Assembly (NCBI RefSeq): GCF_000953825.1
Contig: NZ_BBUL01000092.1
Location: 1-64,000 of the forward strand
DNA: 64,000 nt
DNA from: Cellvibrio sp. OA-2007
GTDB lineage: Bacteria; Pseudomonadota; Gammaproteobacteria; Pseudomonadales; Cellvibrionaceae
Direction: 5' to 3'
Both the position numbers and the translations under genes were made by a program. Positions 54,662-61,807 of the stretch are shown piece after piece (position 1 is the first letter of the stretch; each line of letters starts with the position of its first letter). Below the pieces are notes generated by a model. It worked only from the letters and a program-made list of their open reading frames with translations. It searched no databases and was not told the origin of the DNA.

Positions 54662-56812
54662 TCATTCCATTTTATAATTAATGGCCAATCCATAACTGCG
54701 CGGTAGATTGTACAAACCTCGCGGCACCCGAAGAAACGAAAGAGACCGCTGGCGAAGGTTGGTTTCATCGGTAATATTTTTCACCCACAATGAAATATCC
54801 CAACCAGCATCCATCCTGATTCCCATGCGTGCATTGGCAGTAAAATAATTGGCGATAGCATTGTTGGCACTGTTATCAGGATTGGAGAAATAATCGCCGG
54901 TATAACCGTAATCGATATGGCCATAAACCTCTGTTTGATTGAACAGCGGCCTGTTGTAGTCCATGGCGATAAAGTAGGTAATTTCGGGAGCATAAGGTAG
55001 ATAGTTAGCATCGTAATCCACCCCTAAGCCGCCACCATTTTTAAATTCGTCAAACCGCGCTTGGGTAAAAGCAGTATTCAAACTCACACTCAAATACTCA
55101 GTTAGCAGTGATTTGATATCCAGCTCAATTCCTTTGCTGGTGACTTTTCCAGCATTGGTCAATGACAATACAGTGCCGGACGACTGGGTTTGCACAAATT
55201 GAAATACCTGAAAGTCATCAAACTTTGTGATAAAACCAGCGAGATTGACGGTGAGCCGCTGATCAAAAAATACCGATTTTGCGCCTATTTCATAATTGAT
55301 GGCGTATTCCGGGTCAAACTGGAAATTGTCCAATGTGGTAATAAAATCCGCATTCCAGCCCCCACTTTTATAGCCACGCGCAACGCTGCTATAGAGTAAT
55401 ACATCCGAATTGAGCTGAAAATTTATAGCGATTTTCGGCAGTGGCTCATTAAAAGTTTTTTGATCCTGCAGATGATTTACATCAAGAAATAAACCAGTGC
55501 TATCGATACTGGAATAGTCTATATCCTTGCGTTCATGTACATAACGGATACCGCCAGTCAAACGCCATTGCGCATTAATATTGTAATTTCCCTGCGCAAA
55601 TAACGACGCTGATTGCACTGCTGCTGTGGCCGGTGTCTGTACCGATGCATTAGGCGCTGAGCGAAACATTGCACCAGTTACAGCACGGCGCTGGGTTGAG
55701 ATGTCCTGCTGTAAAAAATAAGCACCGATGACATAATCGCCATTCTCACTCGTGGGAGAGGCCAATCTCAATTCTTGACTAAATTGATCGCTTTTTTCAT
55801 CAAACACACTGAAGGCAACATCCAGTGGGGAATAATCTTCTTCACTCAGCTCGCTGAATTCATTGGTGCGAATGCCGGTAATTGAGGTCCAGCGAAAGTG
55901 TTGCGGAGTATCATAAATCGCTTCAATCGTTGTGCCTTTTAATTCGCGCCGCTCATACTCATCGGCATTGTGCGCCACCACAAATGGCTCCGGCGCCAGG
56001 GTAAATCCATTAAGGCCGCCATTAGCAAGAGCTTCGGCGTTAGTGGATTGATCGTCATCTTTTAGATAATCAAAACCCATATCCAAGGTTAGATTTTCAG
56101 CCCCTATGTAACGAAACTTTAATTTCGCTAGATCGCGCTGAACACCCTGCAGATTGCGCTTGAGCGTGATGTTATCAATGTAGCCATCTTGCTCAGTAGC
56201 ACCCAGTAACAAACTGGCAAACAAATCGGCAGTCAGGGGGAGATTTATTTTCCCTGTGAGGGAACGCAAGTTGTAATTACCGATATTGCTAAGCAATTCC
56301 GCGTTAAAAGTATCTTCTGGTTTTTGCGTAATAATATTGATTGCACCGGCCAGAGCATTAGTACCGGCCAAGGTGCCCTGCGGGCCGCGCAATACCTCTA
56401 TGTGCGCAACATCCAATAAGCTCTGATCGAAACTGGAAGAGCGCCCGGTCAACACACCATCAATATAAACCGCCACACGCGCATTGGTGCCTATATTGCG
56501 CGCATAATCGCCGACGCCGCGTATCGCAATTTCTCCGCGAGTATTTCTATCGCCCCGCCCAAAGTTGATATTGGGAATTGCCGTTTCCATTTCCGTTAAA
56601 GAACTTGCCCCCACTTGAGCGATAAAATTTTTATCGTAAACACCTATTGCAATAGGTATGGCTTGCGCATTTTCATCGCGCATTTGCGCCGTTACAATTA
56701 CCTCCTCCAACTCGAAGCTACTGGTATTTTGCGACCAAACCACCGGGCTATACGCCGTTGCAATAGACAATCCCGCAAACCAAAAACCACTAGGAACTAG
56801 TATTTTTTTCAT
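54662..56812 (-). CDS. TonB-dependent outer-membrane receptor
   Basis: 716 residues from the ATG at 56812 (other in-frame starts at 56821 and 56839). A signal peptide (FWFAGLSIATAYSPVVWSQ) is followed by a TonB box (LEEVIVTAQ), a plug (IRGVGDYARN, DGVLTGRSSSFDQ, IEVLRGPQGTLAGTNALAG), and a barrel ending in YGLAINYKME. It belongs to the large group of receptors for diverse substrates, and the sequence does not give the ligand. A GATAAT-like A/T stretch around the start (56812-56834) could be a weak Fur site. It lies between a response regulator and a PchB-like gene, which suggests uptake of a salicylate-type chelate; this is inference. Confidence 0.88.
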   Translation of the reverse strand: MKKILVPSGFWFAGLSIATAYSPVVWSQNTSSFELEEVIVTAQMRDENAQAIPIAIGVYDKNFIAQVGASSLTEMETAIPNINFGRGDRNTRGEIAIRGVGDYARNIGTNARVAVYIDGVLTGRSSSFDQSLLDVAHIEVLRGPQGTLAGTNALAGAINIITQKPEDTFNAELLSNIGNYNLRSLTGKINLPLTADLFASLLLGATEQDGYIDNITLKRNLQGVQRDLAKLKFRYIGAENLTLDMGFDYLKDDDQSTNAEALANGGLNGFTLAPEPFVVAHNADEYERRELKGTTIEAIYDTPQHFRWTSITGIRTNEFSELSEEDYSPLDVAFSVFDEKSDQFSQELRLASPTSENGDYVIGAYFLQQDISTQRRAVTGAMFRSAPNASVQTPATAAVQSASLFAQGNYNINAQWRLTGGIRYVHERKDIDYSSIDSTGLFLDVNHLQDQKTFNEPLPKIAINFQLNSDVLLYSSVARGYKSGGWNADFITTLDNFQFDPEYAINYEIGAKSVFFDQRLTVNLAGFITKFDDFQVFQFVQTQSSGTVLSLTNAGKVTSKGIELDIKSLLTEYLSVSLNTAFTQARFDEFKNGGGLGVDYDANYLPYAPEITYFIAMDYNRPLFNQTEVYGHIDYGYTGDYFSNPDNSANNAIANYFTANARMGIRMDAGWDISLWVKNITDETNLRQRSLSFLRVPRGLYNLPRSYGLAINYKME

Positions 56813-56882
56813 TATTATTCTCATGAATAATTGGCTCAATAAAGTGGAATGATAAAGTGGTGGATATTATTGAATACAACGA

Positions 56883-57629
56883 TCAGGCATTGCGGGAGTA
56901 TGCCTGCAAGATATTTTGTAGCCCCTTCATGGACAGGGGTTTTTCAAGGAAATCGGTAAATCCCCTGGCCAGCAATCCCGATTGATTAGCGCCTAGCGGC
57001 AAACTCGTCAGGCCGATAATAATCGTTTCATTACTAACACGGGTGCGCAAGGCAATCGTTGCCTGCTCTCCGTTCATCTTGGGCATATGCAAATCCATCA
57101 GAATCAAATCATATTGTTTCTGCTCACATTTACGGATGGCTTCCAAGCCATTTTCGGCAAAATCCACTTGGTAATGCGGGGCGAGCAAACTCTCGCCTAT
57201 ATCGCGATGTACAACCTCATCATCGACTAACAGAATCGTTTTGATGGCAGGGGTTCTTACCGATGGGATCATTGCTTGATCGAGATTCAGATTCGGAATT
57301 TTGGCGCCTAAATTATCACCAAGCGGATATGTGCCAAAATTATTGGCCTGATGTTGAATGGATTCAGACAGCAGATTTATTTTTTTTTGTACCACCTCCA
57401 GATTCGAAACCATGATTTCCGGTGCGCTGATCAGCGCATCAATCACTTTTTTGTCGTCGGGTAATAGGTGCAGCAAATGGGGCGACTCGGCCAAGGTTTT
57501 AATGAGCTGCGGCAGATAGGATGCGAGCAACCCAGCTTTTATTTTGGCAATCAGTAACGGCGTGGCGATGTCATGAAATAGCGTTTCGGTGCTATCCAAC
57601 TCAGAGTGGGCTTGATTAGTTTCTGTCAT
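56883..57629 (-). CDS. Response regulator with N-terminal kinase-like H-box and C-terminal receiver
   Basis: 248 residues. Residues 1-125 carry LFHDIATPLLIAKIKAGLL (His19), which resembles the phospho-accepting H-box of histidine kinases (HDxxTPL), followed by a helical stretch. There is no ATP-binding domain. Residues 130-245 are a complete receiver: acidic pair D136-D137, phospho-acceptor D179 in ILMDLHMPKMNG, T208 and K230. So a DHp-like part and a receiver are fused without the catalytic domain, and no DNA-binding domain exists. It is divergent from the synthase-kinase genes, with 356 bases between, and upstream of a TonB receptor gene by 70 bases. Confidence 0.88.
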   Translation of the reverse strand: MTETNQAHSELDSTETLFHDIATPLLIAKIKAGLLASYLPQLIKTLAESPHLLHLLPDDKKVIDALISAPEIMVSNLEVVQKKINLLSESIQHQANNFGTYPLGDNLGAKIPNLNLDQAMIPSVRTPAIKTILLVDDEVVHRDIGESLLAPHYQVDFAENGLEAIRKCEQKQYDLILMDLHMPKMNGEQATIALRTRVSNETIIIGLTSLPLGANQSGLLARGFTDFLEKPLSMKGLQNILQAYSRNA

Positions 57630-57985
57630 TACTTGCGGACCTTAAATTTTTAATTGTGAAGTCCTTAAAGTGCTACCTCCGTTATACCAGGCGGAGACTT
57701 ATCGCCTTATTTTTCTCGCACGCCCGTGCAACCACACCACCCCTCCTCCAGCACCACCATACAACGTTAAATGGCAACGCCAACTATTTCGCACCATTCA
57801 ATCACTTCGTTATGAAGATTTAAAGTGTTGTTTTAGGTCGCATACTTTTTGAGCATAATGGAGTTTGACGCCAAGTCCAAGTCGAACATGGCGCCAAGAG
57901 TATTTATGTGGCACTTAAAGCATCATTTGCATTTTTTGTGCTCGCATTATCCAAATTTAATGTGCACTTAGCCGAGAGGTATCAT
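57630..57985. promoter_or_regulatory. Divergent control region with repeated TTAAAGTG sites
   Basis: This 356-base gap separates the divergent response regulator and acyltransferase genes. TTAAAGTG occurs at 57665-57672 and 57820-57827, and its complement form at 57912-57919 (CACTTAAA), with a further partial copy (GCACTTA) at 57964-57970. Two sites lie on each strand, as would suit a dimeric regulator. No open frame with a ribosome site is visible. Confidence 0.45.
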
Positions 57986-58600
57986 ATGTTTACTACTGCC
58001 CTTCAAACCCAAGAAAAACCACAAAGTGATTACTATAGTGTAATAGCAAAAGGGCCCATGCTAGACCGGGTGTATTCAATGCGCTATAGAAGTTATAGTG
58101 CAGAAGGCTACATTGAAGAGAACTCTTCGTTAAAGTTTATTGATGAATATGACAACCAGCCGAATAGCATTTGTTTTTTGGCATACCAAAATACTAAGGC
58201 CATTGGTTCAATGCGCGCGTGTGTCTACACCCCATCCGAGGATGCTTTAATTCCTGTAATGGAAGTATTTGAGAACGAAATTCGCGATAACGTTGGCTAT
58301 GATGACATTTTGGTAGAAATGAACAAATTTGTTATAGACCCCACATTTCAGCGCAAAGGCGGAATGCAAGCCAGGCTCACACTAATGGGATCGGTTTTAA
58401 CTGAGTCGGTCAACAGAAACGCCAAGGCCGTCTTAGTCGCAGTTCGCCCTGAGCACACCAGATTTTATCAATTATTTGGCGCCAAGGTAATTTCGGGTAT
58501 TAAGTCCTACCCCCACTTAAGTTTTAAAACTGTCTTAATGGTATGCAACGATCTTGATGCGGCAGGGAATATTTTAAGAAGTAAATTGCGAGCGGCGTGA
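57986..58600 (+). CDS. LuxI/FeeM-type N-acyltransferase (putative signal synthase)
   Basis: 204 residues from the ATG at 57986, which has GAGGT upstream. The fold is GNAT-like. Residues match the LuxI active-site spacing: an Arg in MRYRSYSAEGY (R33), an Asp pair in IDEYDN (D53, D56) and Arg77 in IGSMRACV; in LasI they are R24/D45/D48/R70. The family Trp and the first Glu are not evident, and the substrate pocket is unlike LuxI proper. The remainder (EMNKFVIDPTFQRKGGMQAR, VRPEHTRFYQLFGAKVISG) is closer to FeeM-like N-acyl amino acid synthases. It likely makes an N-acyl signal from acyl-ACP, by inference. It is one base from the kinase gene. Confidence 0.78.
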   Translation: MFTTALQTQEKPQSDYYSVIAKGPMLDRVYSMRYRSYSAEGYIEENSSLKFIDEYDNQPNSICFLAYQNTKAIGSMRACVYTPSEDALIPVMEVFENEIRDNVGYDDILVEMNKFVIDPTFQRKGGMQARLTLMGSVLTESVNRNAKAVLVAVRPEHTRFYQLFGAKVISGIKSYPHLSFKTVLMVCNDLDAAGNILRSKLRAA

Positions 58601-58601
58601 A

Positions 58602-60683
58602 ATGATTCAATACCTAATCACAGCAATTATTGACATTGCTGTGGGAATTTTAGCTTTATCGAAAAAAGAAAACCCCGCAGCAAAAGCTCTGGGGTTTACC
58701 ATCTGCTGCTTAGGTTTTTGGTCATTAGAACTATACTTTTTGACAACCATTACTGACATGAAATTGCTGGATACCCTTTTTCATTTAACGCGATGGGGTA
58801 TGTTTCTTGCCCCATCTATTTTTACATTACTAGCGTGGCGACTGCTAGGGAGCCGCTCAATCACCTTTAGGAATATTATTATTATTCCTAGTTTCCTTAT
58901 GAGCTTTCTTTTAGCATTTGGTAACTTCTTTATTTTCCCATCAGAACTAATTAAAACTGAAGGTGGATACCTACCGAAACCTGACTTTATTTTTTATGCA
59001 TTTGCAGCGTATTTTATTTGGTGCTTTATTGGATCCCTTGCCTTAGTTACATTTTCTTATAAATCATCATTAAGCCGTGAGAAACAACGCCTAAAGTGGA
59101 TTCTTATCACACTGCTGGTTTGCTTTTTAATAGGCATTCTCTTAATAGGAGCCATGCCAAAAAGCTTTTACTTATCAAAGCTAATGGGACCCATATCAAA
59201 TATCATATTTGTGGCATTCTTGTTTTATACAACAATTCAACACAACCTAATGGATTTCAGATTGGCGCTCAGTGTTGGCTTATCCAAAGCTATTTTGCTG
59301 GGATTCTTTATTTGGTTGTATTTTGTTGTGACTTCAGTGGTCGGCGATCACACTGAATCTGTAGGTGGAGTATTAATTCTATTGTTATTTGTGGCATTAA
59401 TCCTGGAGGCTTATCCAAGATTATTAAAATGGATTTTGCCCAACGCAAAGAAGATTTTAGCCAAACATGGCTATGAATTTGATCAAGTCAAAGAGGATAC
59501 AGAAGTTGCACTGAGAAACTCAATTAACTTCTCGATGATGACTGAAGTACTGGATCATTTATTTTTAAAGGTACTTAGACTCACTAACTACAAAATTCTG
59601 ATGATTAGACAGCAGGTCGAATCAGTGGATGGCGATATTAACAACAGGTTAAGCAGCCTACCTTTTGAAGTCATTAGCGAAGACAAACCACTAGTCACTT
59701 ACTGCGCTCAACAAACGCAATTGATTATGGCAGATGAAATGCCAGATCTCATGCGCACTGAAATGGAACATCATAGCGCCGGATTATGCTTTCCGGTACT
59801 TTCAGAACAAAAAATTCTAGCCATTGTGCTGGTCGGCAACCCCACACACTTTTCCTATTATCGCTATGATGATATGAAAGTTTTTGAGTGGCTGCGAACA
59901 GAGTTAGAGCAGGTATTCAACCGGGTTATTCGCCTAAATAATATGCATGAACAATTGGGCGAAGCAAAAAAAACACTGTCAATGCTCAGCCTGATGAATC
60001 ACTACCATCACGACATCAAAGCACCTTTTGCTATTATCGACGGCATTCTGTCAAATGACATCTATGATCGCGACAAGCAGCGGGACATAGTATTGGCTCA
60101 GGTTGAGCGCGGCTCCAAGTTGATCGCTACAATGGCAAGCATTTTGGGTGGGCACCATAAACGGAGAATTCAATCCTGTTCATTGGAAACACTGGTTCAA
60201 GACTGCCTCTATTTATTCGAAAAATCTTTCGACCGTATCGAATACGAACTAAGCGGAATTCCCCACATCAAAGGTGACGCGGAAGACCTAAAAATTCTCT
60301 TTATTAACTTGATCAAAAATGCCGCCGAAGCTCGCCGCGACGCAGAAGAGCTAACGATCAAAATTAAATCCTGGGTCGAAAATAATAATGTTTACTTTTC
60401 CATCTCAGACAACGGCACCGGTATGACCAAGAGCCAACTAGCCAACTTATGGGAAGCAGGCTTCAGCGGGAAAAAATTTGGCAATGGTATTGGTATGCAA
60501 GCCATTAAGCGCATCGTTGATGAGCATAATGCGCATATTGATGTGACAAGTGAAGTTGCAAAGGGATCTGAATTTACGCTGTGCTTTTTTGCTTCCCAAA
60601 TTGCTCATGAAGGTGACAAGGCAAAAGACGAGTTAGCAGAAAGGCGCGCCGCCAATCTGCTAGAAAAGAGAAATATTCAATGA
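58602..60683 (+). CDS. Multi-pass sensor histidine kinase
   Basis: 693 residues. Residues 1-275 hold about eight hydrophobic helices, in the style of 7TM/PrsK-type sensors that detect membrane-borne or lipid-like ligands. Residues 290-445 form a GAF-like segment. The H-box is MNHYHHDIKAPFAIIDGIL with His470. The catalytic domain has an N-box (NLIKNAAEARR near 570), G1 (SISDNGTGMTK near 603) and G2 (FGNGIGMQAIKR near 628). It starts one base after the acyltransferase stop, so the two are translationally coupled. There is no receiver. It could sense the product of its neighbour. Confidence 0.92.
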   Translation: MIQYLITAIIDIAVGILALSKKENPAAKALGFTICCLGFWSLELYFLTTITDMKLLDTLFHLTRWGMFLAPSIFTLLAWRLLGSRSITFRNIIIIPSFLMSFLLAFGNFFIFPSELIKTEGGYLPKPDFIFYAFAAYFIWCFIGSLALVTFSYKSSLSREKQRLKWILITLLVCFLIGILLIGAMPKSFYLSKLMGPISNIIFVAFLFYTTIQHNLMDFRLALSVGLSKAILLGFFIWLYFVVTSVVGDHTESVGGVLILLLFVALILEAYPRLLKWILPNAKKILAKHGYEFDQVKEDTEVALRNSINFSMMTEVLDHLFLKVLRLTNYKILMIRQQVESVDGDINNRLSSLPFEVISEDKPLVTYCAQQTQLIMADEMPDLMRTEMEHHSAGLCFPVLSEQKILAIVLVGNPTHFSYYRYDDMKVFEWLRTELEQVFNRVIRLNNMHEQLGEAKKTLSMLSLMNHYHHDIKAPFAIIDGILSNDIYDRDKQRDIVLAQVERGSKLIATMASILGGHHKRRIQSCSLETLVQDCLYLFEKSFDRIEYELSGIPHIKGDAEDLKILFINLIKNAAEARRDAEELTIKIKSWVENNNVYFSISDNGTGMTKSQLANLWEAGFSGKKFGNGIGMQAIKRIVDEHNAHIDVTSEVAKGSEFTLCFFASQIAHEGDKAKDELAERRAANLLEKRNIQ

Positions 60684-60832
60684 TTTAGCTCTCATCTGAT
60701 ATCCCTCCTAATCGCTGAGGCTTGTTTGATTACCCCTCCCCCGTATAATTGGCTTACAATATCTATCACATACTTTACATAGTCGGCTCATTTGCAAGCC
60801 ATTAAGCCTTTATATTACTTGGGATTCTTAGT

Positions 60833-61807
60833 GTGAAATCAAAAATTCCTCTTTGTTTTTATCCAACACAAATTGTGTTTGTCGATGATAACCCAGACTT
60901 TTTAGATGCGCTGTCTACAAACTTTTCCAAGCAATTCAATGTGAAAACTTTCGATAATACCGACGCAGCCTTGCGGTATATAAACGAATATCAGCGCGAA
61001 GCCGAACTTGTTGCTAATGGCGAAAAACCCAAACCGCAGGGCGACTCAGACGCTTGGGTGAAGCAAGTTCTTACCCACAAAAATGTCAAACGTTTTGATG
61101 AATTGCGCATCAGAGAAGTGTCCGTATTAATAGTAGACTACTCCATGCCGAATATGAATGGCATCGAATTTTGCGCACAGATAAACAATCTATCGATTAA
61201 AAAAATTCTATTGACTGGCTATGCCACTCCAGCTGATGCGGTAAGAGCTTTTAATAACAATACCATTCATTATTATCTTAAAAAGAATGATGAGAACATG
61301 CTTCAAGATTTAGAAGCAGCCATTCATCAATTACAACACGCGTATTTCAATGAATTATCAAGCAGCCTAAAAGCAGAAGCCATCGATAGCGGCACACCTT
61401 TTTTTGCTGACCCTCAACTGGCGCGTTACTTTGAAGAGACCTGCGAATCACTGGGAGTGACCGAATACTATTACTTAACCAACCCTTCGCGTTTTGCCTT
61501 GCGCACACGGGATGGCGATAACTTCTCCTGTGTTATTTATACTGAGGAGGACATTACTGAACATCTGCAGATACTGCAGGAAGAAAGCGCACCCAAATCG
61601 CTTTACAACGCAATAGAGTCACGCAAACATGTACCTTTATTTCACACAGCAGATGGGTATTACGAGCCAGGTATGGCAGACGCTACAGCCAGCATTTACC
61701 CAGCAGTGCATGTATCAGGAGTGGTGAATTATTATTGCGCGGTTGTCGCCGACACGGGCGCTATAGAAGCACCCGCTATCAAACTGTCCAAAGGGTCACT
61801 TCATTAG
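60833..61807 (+). CDS. Response regulator with an inserted receiver segment and unknown C-terminal domain
   Basis: 324 residues from GTG at 60833. The receiver is complete: D18-D19, phospho-acceptor D102 in LIVDYSMPNMNG, T128 and K150. Between strand 2 (about residue 50) and strand 3 (near 96) lies a charged insertion of about 45 residues (REAELVANGEKPKPQG and after). The C-terminal ~155 residues (ARYFEETCESLGVTEYYYL, DGDNFSCVIYTEEDITEHL, YPAVHVSGVVNYYCAVVAD) contain no helix-turn-helix, GGDEF, HD-GYP or PAS that I can recognise. It lies 149 bases after the kinase gene and is likely its partner. Confidence 0.85.
   Translation: MKSKIPLCFYPTQIVFVDDNPDFLDALSTNFSKQFNVKTFDNTDAALRYINEYQREAELVANGEKPKPQGDSDAWVKQVLTHKNVKRFDELRIREVSVLIVDYSMPNMNGIEFCAQINNLSIKKILLTGYATPADAVRAFNNNTIHYYLKKNDENMLQDLEAAIHQLQHAYFNELSSSLKAEAIDSGTPFFADPQLARYFEETCESLGVTEYYYLTNPSRFALRTRDGDNFSCVIYTEEDITEHLQILQEESAPKSLYNAIESRKHVPLFHTADGYYEPGMADATASIYPAVHVSGVVNYYCAVVADTGAIEAPAIKLSKGSLH

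Follow-up and report, generated by a model that had tools for sequence, protein, structure and literature searches.

A candidate signalling system with a FeeM-type synthase, a multi-pass histidine kinase and an LqsR-type regulator in Cellvibrio sp. OA-2007

Gene content of the locus

The first 64,000 nucleotides of contig NZ_BBUL01000092.1 of Cellvibrio sp. OA-2007 (assembly GCF_000953825.1; the window, hereafter) carry three genes that a preliminary description, made from the letters alone, had presented as a candidate new signalling system consisting of a LuxI/FeeM-type synthase, a multi-pass kinase and an unusual response regulator. All three are found at 57986-61807, the regulator following the kinase and a single base separating synthase and kinase (Table 1); the synthase opens with an ATG at 57986, with GAGAGG just 5' of it, and ends with a stop codon at 58598-58600, and the ATG of the kinase is at 58602. 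Upstream of the synthase, genes for a receiver protein and a TonB-dependent receptor lie on the opposite strand. We consider it likely that this set forms a self-contained cell-cell signalling system of the quorum-sensing type, built from a FeeM-type enzyme, a kinase and regulators; the case is a sequence-based one, made from gene identities, conservation, co-occurrence and a co-segregation pattern with a break inside the kinase gene.

Table 1. Features of the proposed signalling locus (positions in the window)
Feature	Position	Strand	Evidence
FeeM-family N-acyltransferase, proposed signal synthase, 204 residues	57986..58600	+	Pfam, AlphaFold2, Foldseek, key residues
Membrane histidine kinase, proposed receptor, 693 residues	58602..60683	+	HisKA_7TM, HATPase_c, invariant residues
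LqsR/PhcX-type response regulator, 324 residues	60833..61807	+	phmmer against 6sy9_A, invariant residues
H-box and receiver protein without ATPase domain, 248 residues, proposed phosphorelay partner	56883..57629	-	Response_reg, H-box
TonB-dependent receptor, linked partner (start codon uncertain)	54662..56839	-	TonB_dep_Rec_b-barrel and Plug
Conserved block upstream of the synthase, candidate promoter/operator	57822..57874	+	Alignment of 8 intergenic regions
Type-specific cassette, synthase residue ~55 to kinase residue ~210	58148..59231	+	Type-fixed sites, DNA identity drop, Mantel tests

The synthase is a FeeM-family enzyme

In Pfam, FeeM (PF21926) matched residues 55-214 of the 230-residue open reading frame (ORF) with 116.6 bits against a cut-off of 27 (E = 1.2e-33), and it was the sole family above its cut-off; Autoind_synth (PF00765), the LuxI family, gave no match at E values up to 1, and LuxI membership was ruled out on this ground. 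The likeness to FeeM had been recognised before, with an extent (the second half of the protein) that proves understated. A phmmer search of the PDB returned only FeeM itself, weakly (2g0b, E = 0.017). The AlphaFold2 model (predicted local distance difference test, pLDDT, 86; predicted template modelling score, pTM, 0.82) was submitted to Foldseek, and rows 1-6 were all FeeM chains, 2g0b best, with E values of 3e-12 to 3e-10 and template modelling (TM) scores, for a predicted model, of 0.63-0.68 by query and 0.70-0.78 by target. Acetyltransferases and acyl-homoserine lactone (AHL) synthases came after them, BjaI at rank 11 and LasI at rank 47, so that in the comparison with LasI and FeeM proposed at the outset FeeM came first at the level of predicted fold.

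Residues R33, D53, D56, R77, E111, R154 and H157 are invariant in 14 aligned synthases (our own and 13 others) and, in a wider alignment, in all 16 rows with an adjoining kinase and in a lone relative, L050. The Arg, DxxD and Arg described earlier as LuxI-like are thus indeed present (R33, D53, D56, R77) with a spacing of 20/3/21, that of LuxI being 21/3/21; they are no mark of LuxI, since 23 of 37 other FeeM-family proteins keep all four equivalents. A tree of 32 synthase rows, chosen for the presence of both Arg and a fitting length, joins the 16 kinase-paired rows and L050 in one branch (support 100/98), with L050, which has no kinase, falling inside it.

By sequence and predicted fold, the enzyme belongs with FeeM rather than with LuxI, and its product is more likely an N-acyl amino acid than a homoserine lactone, a chemistry that we infer. 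An AHL product, sensed by a membrane kinase in the manner of LuxM/LuxN and made by another kind of synthase, has in its favour the R, DxxD, R and E at LuxI-like places, the ranks of BjaI and LasI in the fold search and the established sensing of AHLs by LuxN; we nevertheless judge it improbable, as FeeM fits far better than any LuxI model in profile and in fold, and as the second Arg of the ExxR motif of LuxI is Lys or Arg here. A second FeeM/Acetyltransf_5 protein of the same genome (G000:C6, L037:6848-7648) follows a 791-residue ORF resembling an outer-membrane receptor, and no kinase of this type is nearby.

The kinase, the regulator and their partners

The kinase contains HisKA_7TM at residues 4-219 (E = 2e-7) and HATPase_c at 558-662 (Pfam), and a Kyte-Doolittle scan placed about eight hydrophobic segments within residues 1-280, in agreement with the eight or so membrane helices previously proposed. 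All 12 sequences aligned, our own among them, keep its H469-H470-D471 and the residues of the ATP site. In a search of the open-access literature, the papers on HisKA_7TM dealt with archaeal and eukaryotic kinases.

The regulator matched PDB chain 6sy9_A, from an entry titled 'Response regulator' which we take to be Legionella LqsR, over residues 4-301 (phmmer, E = 3.1e-36). D18, D19, D102, T128 and K151 are invariant in 9 sequences; the phospho-acceptor Asp, D108 in LqsR, is found as D102, and the aligned 6sy9 chain has D at 128. On this sequence evidence the regulator fits the known LqsR/PhcX family, with a receiver and a special C-terminal domain. That family occurs in 310 proteobacterial genomes in one study, where the output domain is likened to a degenerate diguanylate cyclase with no activity detected (PMC10653808). 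The claim that a LuxR-type receptor is absent holds for our own genome, where no Autoind_bind match exceeded the cut-off of 23 bits; a single one reached 22 bits, on a 40-residue frame with stops.

The 248-residue protein has Response_reg as its only Pfam match, and its H19 lies in an HD[IV][AS]TP-like box and is invariant in 12 sequences, one of which has HN. Its model (pLDDT 78, pTM 0.50) consists of a helical hairpin (5-48/60-98) followed by a receiver; because Foldseek showed only receiver domains among the 50 best rows, the helical half is assigned from the H-box motif and the hairpin prediction. The protein looks like the phospho-accepting half of a kinase minus the ATPase, which would make a connector or a phosphatase its likely role. 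Relatives in G003 and G005 (L132:6256-8827, L133:6200-8807) adjoin a 595-residue protein, which in L132 combines HisKA, HATPase_c and a receiver; the H-box/receiver family may partner kinases more widely.

The TonB receptor stays linked to the set despite a different gene order in L029 and L031. Its role in signal uptake is speculative and the weakest link of the scheme, because the receptor does not vary with the types described below and is missing from some genomes that have the kinase. By analogy, a hydrophobic signal could plausibly be brought in by an outer-membrane importer, because FadL has been linked to long-chain AHLs in rhizobia (PMC9938287).

Conservation and co-occurrence

Synthase matches at E values up to 1e-3 were found in 15 of 145 relatives, our own genome included; a weak match in G033 (E = 2e-4) and the second matches in our own genome and in G001 are not of this kind. 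At all 15 strong loci of the Cellvibrionaceae (14 genomes, with our own) the kinase lies directly downstream of the synthase, the contig ending inside it in G011 and G006. Conservation of the pair across genomes, proposed as a check of the original idea, is borne out by these loci and by two more in G514, a member of another order; a pair confined to one genus was ruled out by the strong loci beyond it and by the G514 pairs. At L035 (G079) synthase and kinase are both interrupted by stops or frame changes, through decay of the system or sequencing errors.

The kinase sensor is present in 14 of 86 genomes, ours among them. These 14 genomes comprise 12 with the synthase, 14 with the regulator somewhere in the genome and 14 with a full-length H-box protein; the corresponding counts in the other 72 are none (strong synthase), 7 (full-length regulator) and 2 (full-length H-box protein). 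Close relatives of the TonB receptor, for which up to 13 candidates per genome were scored, occur in 13 of the 86 genomes, and 11 of those 13 also have the kinase. The remaining kinase genomes are G006, where a fragment of the receptor stands at the end of a contig, and G024 and G046, which have none; G047 has a receptor but no kinase. The middle of the set is possibly hidden by an assembly gap in G008, because the TonB receptor and the regulator each begin a contig there.

Kinase, regulator and H-box protein are found without detectable synthase in G040 (L099) and G024 (L097), as expected of listeners, which these two possibly are. A tblastn search for a decayed synthase in the 1.1 and 2 kb upstream of their kinases gave chance-level matches (best E = 0.57 and 0.66, respectively). 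Such genomes bear on another explanation, in which the enzyme makes a membrane aminolipid or surfactant that the kinase gauges in the same cell, for homeostasis and not for communication. Relatives of FeeM produce N-acyl tyrosines, which are known antibiotics or surfactants (PMC12479983), and synthase and kinase are tightly coupled, both of which suit homeostasis; it seems unlikely, however, given kinases without a detectable synthase in G024 and G040 and three deep synthase-sensor types (below) spread across lineages, which fit self-recognition and not a household lipid.

Scanning genome contigs with the synthase alignment gave 11 loci, of 26 pattern-matching stretches, in Cellvibrio, Saccharophagus, Teredinibacter, Marinagarivorans, two Gammaproteobacteria and a metagenome-assembled genome (MAG) contig titled Calothrix. 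This last is the lone relative L050 (8278-8877), 39% identical to our synthase; its contig carries partition and plasmid-like genes, and no kinase adjoins it. Across the order the synthase is a rarity, found at E = 1e-10 in 2 of 293 genomes, one of them our own; the other match, in G149 (E = 3e-14), has no such kinase alongside. FeeM-family genes at large are common, occurring in 32 of 369 genomes of the class and 40 of 398 of the phylum, our own counted in both. Neighbourhoods were taken at 40 of the 77 FeeM places outside our genome and 39 were readable, some cut by contig ends; this kinase adjoins the FeeM gene at two, both in G514, and one of these (L146) also has the H-box/receiver protein, with HisKA_7TM below its cut-off. 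At L155, L167, L175, L178 and L179 an ordinary histidine kinase lies 2-3 genes from the FeeM gene. At L149:5722-9345 a FeeM-family gene stands beside a large PAS/GGDEF/EAL protein (by Pfam, for L149 only), with similar neighbours at L151 and L153, a possible link of N-acyl products to cyclic di-GMP.

Synthase and sensor half co-segregate by type

Pairwise identities were computed by region for the seven Cellvibrio loci with the full set and compared by exact Mantel tests over 5040 orders. Synthase identity follows that of kinase residues 1-210 closely (r = 0.95, exact p = 0.0018), and it is uncorrelated with that of kinase residues 250-693, regulator, H-box protein, TonB receptor and AraC flank (r = 0.01, -0.07, -0.03, 0.03 and 0.02, respectively), five regions which agree among themselves (mutual r 0.82-0.96). 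A type-specific TonB receptor was rejected on the same figures (r = 0.03 for its comparison with the synthase, as against 0.86 for that with the transmitter half). A sliding scan places the change inside the kinase, at about residues 200-260. Between G010 and G013, DNA identity is 85-89% over the H-box gene, 65-72% over the intergenic region and the synthase start and 57-66% in windows starting at 58186-58986, then rises to 78-80% from 59286 and to 84-92% over most of the rest.

Three types were named: A (our own genome and G014), B (G001, G010) and C (G002, G013, G015). Each is one group in the cassette tree, whereas backbone trees join our own genome with G001 and G002 (99/95) and G010 with G013 and G015 (90/99). 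All three types are rejected by the backbone data (approximately unbiased test, p-AU at most 4e-5), and both backbone groups by the cassette data (p-AU at most 9e-6). Type-fixed sites number 30 in the synthase, all at 66-204, and 33 in the kinase, where a single one, at 527, falls outside residues 9-206. Types B and C are separated by fixed differences at 28 synthase and 33 kinase positions, none of them beyond kinase residue 250 and none in the regulator, H-box protein or TonB receptor. Fixation by backbone group gives the opposite picture, with 2 sites in the synthase, none in kinase residues 1-200, 33 in the later kinase, and 22, 20 and 43 in regulator, H-box protein and TonB receptor.

Related strains thus seem to have exchanged the enzyme along with no more of its sensor than the half that reads the signal, much like dialects. 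As a pattern in sequences, this co-segregation is the signature of quorum-sensing pherotypes, and it suggests that the membrane domain of the kinase reads the product of the enzyme. It supplies independent support for the original idea of a sender and a receiver acting through a two-component system, although in a set larger than three genes, the H-box/receiver protein and the TonB receptor being linked as well.

Several points weigh against this. The comparison has only seven loci, its groups were named after the identities had been seen, and the outgroup branches are long. Across backbones, members of one type are about as alike at third positions as background, so that the shared types are old and not products of recent transfer, through ancient exchange or as long-kept alleles. 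The regulator does not adjoin the kinase in some genomes (G046, G006), and neither regulator nor H-box gene stands alongside the second G025 pair or L148. Product chemistry, ligand binding, phosphotransfer and uptake are all steps that we infer. Finally, synthase and sensor are neighbours, so that both travel in any block exchanged.

Hitch-hiking, that is exchange of the block for reasons unrelated to recognition, could also give the pattern, since neighbouring DNA is transferred as one. The two stretches are contiguous, and both edges of the block fall within well-conserved stretches, the most favourable ground for homologous recombination. Against this, mapping the type labels onto the backbone tree takes 4 changes, the minimum possible being 2, and therefore more than one event shares the same edges; moreover, one edge coincides with the end of the membrane domain, and the exchange left the transmitter half, the regulator and the flanks in place. 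We accordingly give hitch-hiking a low probability and retain signal recognition by the sensor half as the preferred reading.

Proposed mechanism

In the system as we propose it, the FeeM-family enzyme would couple an amine, most likely that of an amino acid, to a fatty acyl group, yielding a lipid-like signal that the kinase would recognise through its membrane half (residue 1 to about residue 210). The kinase would then pass phosphate to the LqsR-type regulator and probably also to the H-box/receiver protein, and output would follow the LqsR mechanism. Enzyme and sensor half would together be a specificity cassette of at least three types, which moved, or were kept as old alleles, across Cellvibrio lineages as transmitter half and regulators stayed. 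As natural specificity pairs, the cassettes make recognition testable by swapping sensor halves between types. FeeM products figure in the available parts of the literature mainly as antibiotics, surfactants or lipids, and a cognate receptor would add a signalling role.

The conserved block upstream of the synthase has its 3' half in 8 of 8 loci of the genus and its 5' half in 6 of 8 (at most 4 mismatches). The idea that it marks a larger regulon found no support: our genome holds one exact match and one with 3 mismatches, against 2 matches of the reversed control. A sigma-70 scan found 7 promoter-like sites, against a shuffle mean of 10.5, and none inside the block.

LqsR-type regulators beside other enzymes

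Four Cellvibrio genomes that lack this synthase (G003, G005, G007 and G017; L092, L093, L094 and L096) have an LqsR-type regulator flanked by a hotdog-type thioesterase and another membrane kinase; two thioesterases (4HBT_2) and one kinase (HisKA_7TM) were identified by Pfam and the rest by phmmer, and in G003 and G005 the same AraC-type gene comes next after the set. This is possibly another signal system on the same chassis. In G091 (L103:5002-8416) a ketosynthase-III-like gene is followed by a kinase and an LqsR-type regulator. Among class genomes, 28 of the 37 regulator places outside our own genome were examined. An aminotransferase as in Lqs is near the regulator at 3 (G410, G539 and G733, the regulator of the last being placed by the genome search and not by the ORF list); directly upstream of kinase and regulator there is a radical S-adenosylmethionine (radical-SAM) protein in G534 and G385, and a haem-oxygenase-like protein in G521 (three loci, L120:6612-9972, L125:2168-5399 and L119:5746-9131). 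At the other 22 places no enzyme was recognised among the neighbours, not every one of which was scanned.

The LqsR chassis seems modular, because its regulators adjoin other candidate signal enzymes elsewhere, and such variety suggests a route to undiscovered signals through the gene adjoining an LqsR-linked kinase. We put forward, tentatively and as a possibility that may well fail in some part, a new class of quorum sensing in Gram-negative bacteria. A dedicated synthase would make N-acyl amino acids (or related products of the FeeM kind), which would enter via a dedicated TonB-dependent receptor and be read by a multi-pass kinase, with self/non-self dialects set by the cassette; the whole would be one of several modules fitting an LqsR chassis, the others having a thioesterase, ketosynthase, radical-SAM protein or aminotransferase as their enzyme.

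Comparison with known systems

In the ComQXP and Agr pherotypes, the signal-making gene and the membrane half of the kinase co-vary over a conserved kinase core, as here; those are peptide signals of Gram-positive bacteria, whereas a small acylated molecule is probable in this Gram-negative genus. LuxI/LuxR and LuxM/LuxN use N-acyl signals, and LuxN is a membrane kinase; unlike in LuxI/LuxR, no LuxI or LuxR family match lies above cut-off here, and in this respect the contrast with LuxI/LuxR drawn at the outset stands. With the N-acyl amino acid synthases FeeM and NasY our enzyme shares protein family and predicted fold (2g0b; PMC12479983), but their genes sit with adenylation/cyclase and nitroreductase genes in the available text, whereas the partner here is a sensor kinase, and the kinase-paired synthases form a clade of their own. 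No description of a FeeM-type synthase combined with a histidine kinase was found in the open-access literature, most subscription papers lying outside the search.

Phc of Ralstonia is alike in its fatty signal, its membrane kinase PhcS, its several receiver proteins without a DNA-binding domain and the LqsR-family regulator PhcX beside the cluster, itself reported as originally part of Lqs; it differs in the methyltransferase PhcB, which makes hydroxy fatty acid methyl esters (PMC10653808, PMC11960443). Phc is a precedent for one kinase addressing several receiver proteins, since a number of these, all lacking a DNA-binding site, are reported targets of PhcS (PMC11960443). Lqs (Legionella) and Cqs (Vibrio) likewise pair a signal synthase with a multi-pass membrane kinase, Lqs adding the regulator LqsR, but LqsA and CqsA have the pyridoxal phosphate-dependent aminotransferase fold and make alpha-hydroxyketones, in contrast to the FeeM-type synthase of this cluster, and LqsS and CqsS have six membrane helices (PMC3376566); for the kinase here there are the HisKA_7TM match and a scan count of about eight hydrophobic segments. 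H-box/receiver and TonB genes are not described for Lqs or Cqs in the available part of the same source. No aminotransferase of the LqsA/CqsA type is in the cluster, the rest of the genome not having been searched for LqsA. The scheme is nonetheless closest to Lqs, Cqs and Phc signalling, because its regulator fits the known LqsR/PhcX family; it is the synthase that differs.

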